A stretch of 64,000 nt of DNA, taken from Pseudomonas sp. BSw22131. GTDB lineage: Bacteria > Pseudomonadota > Gammaproteobacteria > Pseudomonadales > Pseudomonadaceae. Positions 37,252-39,542 of this stretch are shown in pieces. The translations under genes were made by a program, and so were the position numbers. The first letter of the stretch is position 1. The number at the start of each line of letters is the position of its first letter. Below the pieces are notes generated by a model. That model saw only the letters and a program-made list of their open reading frames with translations, did not search any database and was not told the origin of the DNA. The DNA lies in NCBI RefSeq assembly GCF_026810445.1, contig NZ_CP113949.1:4030001-4094000 (forward strand), given 5' to 3'.

Positions 37252-37941
37252 TCATCCGGCGATGTCGCGAAGTGCGACTTCACTCAAGATGCGTTCCAAC
37301 ACCTGCTCGATAGATAATTCAGTGGAATCCAGCTGTATAGCGTCATGCGCTGGCTTGAGCGGGGCTACCGCTCGCTGGGTGTCACGTTCGTCACGTGCAC
37401 ATATCTCACTTAGCAGACTCGACAGACTAACATCATCACCTTTGGCCTTCAACTGCAAGTAACGACGTCGGGCTCGCTCCTCGGCGCTGGCGGTCAGAAA
37501 CACCTTCAGCGGCGCGGCAGGAAATACCACTGTGCCCATGTCGCGCCCATCGGCGATAAGGCCTGGAAACTCTTGGAAAGCCCGCTGACGCTGAAGCAAT
37601 GCTTCGCGCACCGCAGGCAACGACGCCACCTGCGAAGCACCGCTTCCGACCTGCTCATTGCGGATGGCGAGCGTGACATCCTCGCCCTCTAGAATGATGC
37701 GCTGCCCGTGATCGTCGGTAGCCGCTTCGAACTGCACGTCCAGATGAGCGGCCAACAGTTTCAGCGCCTCTTCGTTAGTCAGATCAACTCCATGGTTGCG
37801 CGCCGCGAATGCCAGTAAACGATAGAGCGCACCGGAATCAAGCAGACACCACCCCAGACGCTTGGCCAGCATACCGGCCACTGTGCCCTTCCCTGAACCG
37901 CTTGGTCCGTCGATCGTAATGACCGGAGCTTGAGCTTTCAC
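37252..37941 (-). CDS. cmk: Cytidylate kinase
   Basis: A 229-residue kinase that phosphorylates CMP/dCMP. P-loop [18 protein letters not shown], substrate site [11 protein letters not shown] and the lid region [21 protein letters not shown] start 37941 lies in a GTGA overlap with the tyrA/aroA stop and follows GAGGGG; the longer frame is rejected. The usual position between aroA and rpsA. Confidence 0.95.
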
Positions 37942-39542
37942 GATTGCCCCTCTTGCGCTACACGAATACCCACCTGAGCACAAAGCGCCAGGAAATGGGG
38001 GAATGAAGTTGCGAGACCGGCACAGTCGCTGATACGGATAGGTGCCGTTGCTCGCAACGATGCAATGCTTAATGCCATGGCGACGCGGTGATCACCATGC
38101 GCGTGGACTTCACCGCCACCGAGCGTGCCGCCCTCAATAATGACGCCGTCCACTGTAGACTCGATTTTCACACCCAGTACCGCAAGCGCATCGCAGATCG
38201 CCTGAATGCGCAAGGACTGCCTGACCTGCGCTGCTTGGGCGCCATGCAATACCGTACGTCCCTGAGCACTGGCCGCTGCAACGAACAGCACCGGAAATTC
38301 ATCCATCGCACGGGGCACGAGCGCCTCGGGAATCTCGATACCACTCAACGGCGCATACCTTACGCGCAAGTCAGCTACCGGCTGCTCACCGACTTCTCGC
38401 TGATTTTCGAGCGTGATGTCAGCACCCATCAGACGCAGGAAGTCGATCACACCAACCAGCGCAGCATCCAGCAACACCTGCTCCAGGCGCAACACCGAGC
38501 CGACGCTGATGCAGGCACCCACCAGGTAAGCCACCACGCAGGCGATGTCGTCACTGACATGAATCCGGCCGTTGACCTCACCACCGGCACGCGTCAGCAG
38601 CACAGAGGTATCAGCCGTTGATTTCCAGGTGCCGGCACGACGCGCGAGGATTTCACCGAAATGTTCGCGAGCTGTACGTGCGCGAGTAAAGACCCCCATC
38701 AGTTGTTGGCCGTCGCCTGCATCAACAGCGTCGCGCAGTGCATCCAGGTCAGTGCGAAAAGTGTCCAGGGTGCGCAATACCGCCTCGCGATTGGCGAGAA
38801 AGATATCGTGCCACATCACTGGATCGCTGCCTGCAATACGGGTGAAATCACGAAAACCGCCCGCCGCATAGCGGAAAATTTCCAGGTTTTCATTACGTTT
38901 GGCCAACGAGTCCACCAGTCCGAAGGCCAGCAAGTGCGGCAGGTGGCTGGTTGCGGCCAGCACCTCGTCGTGGCGTTCGACTTGCATGTGCTCGACGTCA
39001 GCGCCCAACACAGTCCAGAGGCGGTCAACCACGGCCAGCGCGGCTGGATCAGTGTCGGCAAGCGGCGTAAGAATTACCTTGTGGCGACGAAACAACTGCG
39101 CGTTGGAAGCCTCCACCCCGCTTTGCTCGGAACCGGCAATCGGATGCCCCGGCACGAAACGTGGCGGCATCGCCCCAAAGGCTTCACGCGCGGCACGCAC
39201 CACATTGCCTTTGGCGCTACCGACATCAGTCAGCACCGCATCGCCCAGATCCAGCGTGGCAAGCACTGCCAACAGTTTTTCCATCGCGAGGATAGGCACT
39301 GCCAGTTGAATCACATCGGCGCCGACACATGCTGCGGCGAGGGTGTCTTCACAGCGATCGACCACGCCCAACTCGACTGCAAGCTTGCGCGACTCAGGAT
39401 CAAGATCGACGCCCACCACCTCACGGCACAGGCCACTTTCGCGCAGGCCCTTGGCGAAAGAGCCGCCAATCAAACCCAGGCCAACGACCACCAGGCGACC
39501 CACCAAAGGCGGTCGCATTTGCGCAGAATTAACATCAATCAC
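37938..39542 (-). CDS. tyrA: Prephenate dehydrogenase fused to a domain-deleted EPSP synthase
   Basis: A 534-residue fusion where about 745 is normal in pseudomonads. Residues 1-302 are an intact prephenate dehydrogenase ([16 protein letters not shown], catalytic His in [11 protein letters not shown]). Residues 315-534 are EPSP synthase sequence, but after the first strand ([10 protein letters not shown], about 320-329) it jumps to the part corresponding to E. coli AroA about residue 240 ([15 protein letters not shown]). About 210 residues are missing, including the GDKSISHR and LGNSGT regions. In the remaining domain the KESDR motif reads RQSLR (Glu and Asp lost), though DEFP (D414) and GDHR (R486) remain. 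No stop or frameshift occurs. TyrA activity is expected, AroA activity is not. GTG start overlaps hisC (GTGA); ATG at codon 9 is an alternative. Confidence 0.92.

Follow-up and report, generated by a model that had tools for sequence, protein, structure and literature searches.

The tyrA-aroA locus of Pseudomonas sp. BSw22131 raises the question of what has become of the 5-enolpyruvylshikimate-3-phosphate (EPSP) synthase half of a fusion protein that has lost one whole domain and stays open. The fusion of prephenate dehydrogenase (TyrA) with EPSP synthase (AroA) lies in a 64,000-nucleotide stretch of contig NZ_CP113949.1 (positions 4,030,001 to 4,094,000), referred to here as the window, and its 534-residue reading frame has no internal stops. 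A preliminary description of this DNA had proposed that domain I of EPSP synthase was removed almost exactly while domain II was left, and the domain-I-less fusion, open and in frame, is confirmed here as a real feature of the locus. The Pfam EPSP_synthase profile matches the fusion only at positions 221–414 of 417, and the final 221 residues align without a break to residues 222–432 of the Coxiella EPSP synthase (PDB sequence). The prephenate dehydrogenase part is intact, with matches above cut-off for the Pfam domains PDH_N (125.3 bits) and PDH_C (99.8 bits). The TyrA/AroA fusion model (PRK14806/NF011381, 733 long) scores 734.5 bits in two stretches, below its cut-off of 902, and the AroA model TIGR01356 scores 142.1 bits at profile positions 210–413, below its cut-off of 287.25.

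Alignment of 30 fusions from the genus showed a full-length AroA part in 26 and the absence of one block in the other four (the window and three relatives). The absent block is flanked by the first hinge strand, GxIRVPGDKSIS, and the re-entry strand, xRIEVPADIS, which are merged at the junction into a single strand, GRIHVSDD. Counted from GRLVV, the window has 520 residues vs 732–734 in the 24 unbroken full-length rows, and the two hinge sites are spaced by 213 codons in all 13 full relatives measured. The missing 213 codons correspond to EPSP synthase domain I, in agreement with the preliminary description.

The leftover is probably devoid of EPSP synthase activity. It should not make EPSP because domain I and the hinge residues are absent and the catalytic KESDR motif is altered; the preliminary description had likewise proposed a loss of activity, and the motif was located and reads RQSLR. 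In E. coli residue labels, the equivalents of K340, E341 and D343 are altered in the window, and the catalytic and substrate residues of the two domains taken together are no longer a full set.

The same description had predicted a second aroA, and a complete-looking standalone gene is present at G000:C1:3929771-3931048, ~137 kb from the fusion. A genome-wide search with Pfam EPSP_synthase found three places: murA, this 426-residue aroA and the leftover. The standalone gene scores 330.3 bits (NCBIfam aroA cut-off, 287.25) and keeps its motifs. In the first genus sample, 43 of 149 genomes had a standalone aroA, including 12/12 genomes without a fused domain I vs 31/137 others (Fisher p 1e-7, kinship ignored). 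A query of 29 genomes (the 11 other remnant forms, 15 with TyrA only, two incomplete genomes and G080, which has a damaged domain I match) found it in 27, the two without it being the incomplete ones. In both lineages with the remnant (see below), full-length sister species carry the same standalone aroA lineage; therefore, the extra gene preceded the cut. Among the graminis-like sisters, three of five (G020, G348 and G386) have catalytic-column changes in the full-length fused copy, some of them mild, such as K to R; in G020 the KESDR motif reads RESGR, and the fused AroA of all three looks as if it were dying in place. In G235 the standalone aroA is split in two frames and the fusion is full length and retains KESDR; redundancy may have been resolved the other way there, or the split may be a sequencing error.

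We searched 398 genomes of the genus with a profile built from four remnant forms. The domain-I-less fusion was found in 12 of them (the window included), with open frames of 538–551 codons and no internal stop in any. With the fused domain I as the query, 369 genomes matched and 29 did not (nine of these being identified by their absence from the match list). The 29 comprise the 12 remnant genomes, 15 with TyrA alone (open frames of 324–383) and two incomplete genomes without a TyrA match, G284 (86% complete) and G366 (77%), which were counted apart; G034, G076 and G377, whose fusion frames are broken, were left out of the counts of states. Of 80 named loci, five were domain-I-less: those of P. 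tremae, P. asturiensis, P. amygdali, P. viridiflava and a strain labelled P. graminis (PDD-13b-3). Among 392 relatives from 90 genera, a search at a strict threshold, below which remoter remnants could score, found the form only in this genus, in six genomes. The proteins that match the window best are two JGI-sourced sequences, likewise of 534 residues: P0003 (84% in the leftover, with the same junction) and P0004 (69%). Their source names are only '3-phosphoshikimate 1-carboxyvinyltransferase' or 'prephenate dehydrogenase', an annotation trap.

The same 213 codons were lost at least twice, independently. (The group names used here, namely syringae group, graminis-like, bohemica-like and fluorescens-like, are our own labels.) A tree of four flanking genes (40 rows) places the window apart from the P. 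syringae group and rejects a single clade of the 14 remnant rows with an approximately unbiased test p of 3.3e-8. The same grouping is rejected for the TyrA part (p 0.025) and for domain II (p 0.00048). The window leftover joins nine full-length bohemica- and graminis-like fusions in a set of 10 rows (support 100), and the 13 leftovers of the P. syringae group form one clade (support 100) adjoining the full-length G370 and G018. Two rows, G013 and G113, were dropped from all three trees, and the domain II tree was built without rows having 50 or more gaps in that domain, i.e., the TyrA-only rows. A third deletion was considered since, in the flank trees, G370 and G018, both of full length, fall within the P. 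syringae-group remnants (support 94 and 96). One clade of the 13 is not rejected (p 0.22) and their leftovers do form one, so the count was left at two or more. HisC was dropped as a flank marker because it was not found at the locus in the P. syringae group. In the window, hisC lies between pheA and tyrA; no hisC was seen in the stretches retrieved for the P. syringae group or for G370, G018 and G146, and a passage of an earlier study likewise gives it as absent from the P. syringae locus (PMC1173090).

A repeat at the hinges was also considered as the cause of the recurrence and set aside. The two sites share exact words of 5–9 nucleotides in 13 relatives (mean 5.8), vs a mean of 4.9 and a 95th percentile of 7 for random sites at the same distance, and 12–16 of 30 bases are alike in register, vs a random mean of 8.8 (standard deviation 2.9). 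Such DNA, barely more alike than at random sites, would be a slight help at best; recurrence of the same cut is thus probably better explained by what survives, namely an excision that keeps the frame and spares one domain entirely.

The leftover is under relaxed but real purifying selection. For the 13 P. syringae-group rows, the Nei-Gojobori ratio of nonsynonymous to synonymous substitution rates (dN/dS) is 0.175 in the leftover and 0.042 in TyrA; domain II of full-length fluorescens-group rows gives 0.029. A codon-model grid, which is coarse, gives a dN/dS (omega) of ~0.17 for the leftover vs ~0.05 for TyrA on the same 13 rows, with omega 1 far worse (twice the log-likelihood difference, 529), and ~0.12 for the leftover in each of two subclades alone. 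Between the window and 15 full relatives, pairwise dN/dS is 0.10–0.22 for domain II and 0.02–0.04 for TyrA, at dS of 1.3–2.8, near saturation. This comparison had been proposed in the preliminary description, and it places the remnant under constraint that is weaker than that on TyrA. The eight catalytic columns of the leftover vary most on average, and the hydrophobic and glycine columns least. Under neutral models with uniform base changes, a full relative evolved to 0.46 substitutions per site acquires a mean of 3.8 stops in 179 codons and stays stop-free in only 36 of 2000 runs, so that the frame described as open over the remnant would seldom stay open by chance; hydrophobic positions remain hydrophobic more than in neutral runs of a no-stop model. 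An antisense frame was discarded as the cause of the open frame: the longest first-frame antisense runs are 106–203 codons among the remnants, and such runs are also seen in three full-length forms. The selection observed fits maintenance of a fold, slow decay or a new function. An AlphaFold2 model, a step likewise proposed beforehand, gives the remnant a confident predicted fold; the 50 fold matches listed for it include only EPSP synthase, MurA, TyrA and the designed hydrolase 4n3p.

The very end of the leftover follows a pattern of its own. Over the last 23 codons, the fraction of codon pairs for an identical residue that differ is 0.00–0.24 in the window-side groups and the P. syringae group, vs 0.40–0.48 in the fluorescens group; in the last three codons of one group the value is 0.33. 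The cichorii-like and graminis-like groups are less telling on this point, since their synonymous change is low across much of domain II. The pattern may reflect a nucleotide-level element before cmk, a candidate that would account for the conservation of the very end and not for the rest of the leftover, where pN/pS is 0.18–0.41 in 20-codon segments from the junction to before the last segment. No RNA structure was predicted in this block (z 0.55, 0.18 and −0.13). An Rfam search near the locus returned one match with E 0.5, below the gathering score; a promoter scan gave no sigma-70-type match; terminator-like sites numbered three vs 2.6 expected; and a search of a plasmid collection gave no match.

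The TGA stop of the fusion and the GTG start of cmk overlap in the window (GTGA, 37938–37941), as they do in all 24 unbroken full-length rows and all 14 remnant rows. The TyrA-only state requires three changes on a 56-row flank tree, its lineages being ten fluorescens-like genomes, G023 with G336, and G146 with G343 and G161. In 11 of the 15 genomes with this state, the last residues of the frame resemble those of AroA and the GTGA string is present, and a cmk motif was recognized behind seven of these 11 (the pattern missed the other four). In the remaining four, cmk starts 141–321 bases downstream and the overlap is lost. The three lineages without a leftover indicate that TyrA does not need it in general, and the role that the preliminary description had suggested for it, in the stability or regulation of prephenate dehydrogenase, was not confirmed.

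We favor an explanation, to which we assign a probability of about 0.6, in which redundancy was followed by a domain-precise excision that left a dead structural tail on prephenate dehydrogenase. With a standalone aroA already present, the fused AroA half would have become redundant. Loss of 213 codons would then, in this lineage, have joined in frame the two strands by which the chain crosses from one EPSP synthase domain to the other, so that domain I went and TyrA kept domain II, with such hinge-to-hinge excisions filtered for both frame and fold. The leftover would persist as a folded, catalytically dead C-terminal tail, its fold kept by selection to spare TyrA an unfolded appendage, perhaps with a modest structural benefit. 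Selection would also preserve an open frame up to the overlap with the cmk start, and no longer the chemistry.

Several observations weigh against this explanation. The AlphaFold2 alignment is shallow (30 rows, 22 of full length) and the predicted template-modelling score is 0.46. The whole AroA half was lost in three lineages and the cmk overlap in four of those genomes, so neither fold nor coupling is indispensable. Graminis-like full-length fusions give a similar omega (0.08 for domain I and 0.17 for domain II), so that a retained role and slow decay cannot be told apart by omega alone. Conservation of the last 23 codons lies at the nucleotide level, the equivalents of D313, R344, D384, H385 and R386 are still present in the window, and those of E341, D384 and R386 are mostly kept in the 13 remnant rows. 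Finally, the drafts G034 and G076 have broken fusion frames and no standalone aroA. The fusion frame of G377 is also broken mid-way, and the mid-frame breaks in all three genomes are likely to be draft or sequencing errors.

A second reading, which we consider rather unlikely, gives the leftover a new role in regulating prephenate dehydrogenase or in binding partners, for example through an effect on inhibition by tyrosine, on the oligomeric state or on association with a further enzyme of the pathway. Purifying selection with altered constraint in the 13 rows and the fixation of the same cut in two lineages would fit such a role, which has been proposed in print for P. syringae (in a passage of PMC1173090), but TyrA stands without the leftover in three lineages, domain I and the hinge residues are gone, and several catalytic columns of domain II drift. 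A bolder form of the idea, that two separate hinge-to-hinge excisions each made the dead domain II an accessory domain that tunes the stability, assembly or feedback control of prephenate dehydrogenase and was kept for that, is possible, if doubtful; if true, it would provide a natural, datable case of a regulatory or structural domain born from a discarded catalytic one. The leftover could instead be a passenger, required only for its open frame and its 3' end, through translational coupling to cmk at GTGA and a cis element in the last 23 codons. The overlap in every full-length and remnant row, its GTGA string in 11 of the 15 TyrA-only genomes and synonymous sites that are nearly frozen at the end speak for this; we consider it improbable given the amino acid constraint found throughout the leftover, a retention of hydrophobic positions beyond that of the no-stop neutral model and the loss of the overlap in four of the TyrA-only genomes.

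A single deletion that moved between the P. syringae group and the window lineage by horizontal transfer or recombination would explain why length and register are the same in both, but the window leftover groups with full-length bohemica- and graminis-like fusions, and one clade is rejected for domain II, TyrA and the flanks alike, which makes a single event very improbable. As for an assembly error or a young pseudogene of a single strain, the odd length is the sole point in its favor. Relatives do have a full-length aroA here, but the deletion lies in a single-contig genome and recurs with the same junction in the independent protein P0003, P0004 has the same length, and the frame is free of stops in all 12 remnant genomes, so that this explanation has next to no probability.

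The kind of fusion described here is already known. An N-terminal deletion of ~200 residues in the EPSP synthase moiety has been reported for the TyrA-AroF (AroF = AroA) fusion of P. syringae (BMC Biol 2005 3:13, PMC1173090), with one passage of that paper placing it at the C-terminal side where two others say N-terminal; its passages also mention a standalone aroA elsewhere in P. syringae and suggest a future for the remnant as a regulatory domain. The fusion in the window resembles that one as it is described there in the side and size of the loss (213 codons), in the frame being kept and in the presence of a standalone gene, and differs from it in being a separate event in another Pseudomonas lineage, common descent being rejected. 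Selection, the exact domain boundary and the fold are not treated in the passages of PMC1173090 on P. syringae. The window adds an independent member, together with evidence on selection, fold and distribution. No report of a second lineage, of selection or of a function of the remnant appeared in the titles and abstract openings of the literature matches listed, a set in which subscription journals are mostly uncovered. The window form shares its locus, TyrA part and domain II with the full-length Pseudomonas TyrA-AroA fusion and differs from it by the lack of domain I and a score below the model cut-off. Unlike the Coxiella burnetii EPSP synthase structures 3roi and 3tr1, it has one domain of two and an altered catalytic motif. 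The short PDB chains 1p88 (216 residues) and 3ti2 (228 residues) likewise present a single half of EPSP synthase as a unit, but theirs is the N-terminal half, on the domain I side, which matches the first half of the standalone AroA, whereas the window keeps domain II.

The gene order in the window is serC-pheA-hisC-tyrA-aroA-cmk-rpsA (neighbors assigned with NCBIfam), and the positions of the relevant features are listed in Table 1. The database protein from the same genome, P0002, starts at residue 9 of the 534-residue frame and has 526 residues.

Table 1. Features of the domain-I-less fusion and the adjoining cmk gene, in window coordinates
Feature	Position	Strand	Basis
tyrA-aroA fusion reading frame, 534 residues	37938..39542	-	Open reading frame, Pfam, NCBIfam, database proteins
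TyrA (prephenate dehydrogenase) part, residues 16-303	38634..39497	-	Pfam PDH_N and PDH_C
Leftover EPSP synthase domain II, residues 312-534	37941..38609	-	
Deletion junction GRIHVSDD, residues 325-332; 213 codons gone	38547..38570	-	Alignment with full-length fusions
Former KESDR catalytic motif, now RQSLR, residues 441-445	38208..38222	-	
Final 23 codons of the remnant; candidate nucleotide-level element before cmk	37941..38009	-	Low synonymous change
cmk ((d)CMP kinase)	37252..37941	-	NCBIfam TIGR00017

For annotation, these forms call for caution: P0003 is labelled EPSP synthase by its source, although another gene probably makes that enzyme. With at least two domain-precise excisions and three losses of the whole half, all within one genus and in genomes carrying a second aroA, the locus offers a repeated natural experiment on a redundant half of a fused enzyme. 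The emerging-domain suggestion of 2005 is made testable by it, and the remnants suggest that a single domain of EPSP synthase can be retained throughout a group of species after the other has gone.
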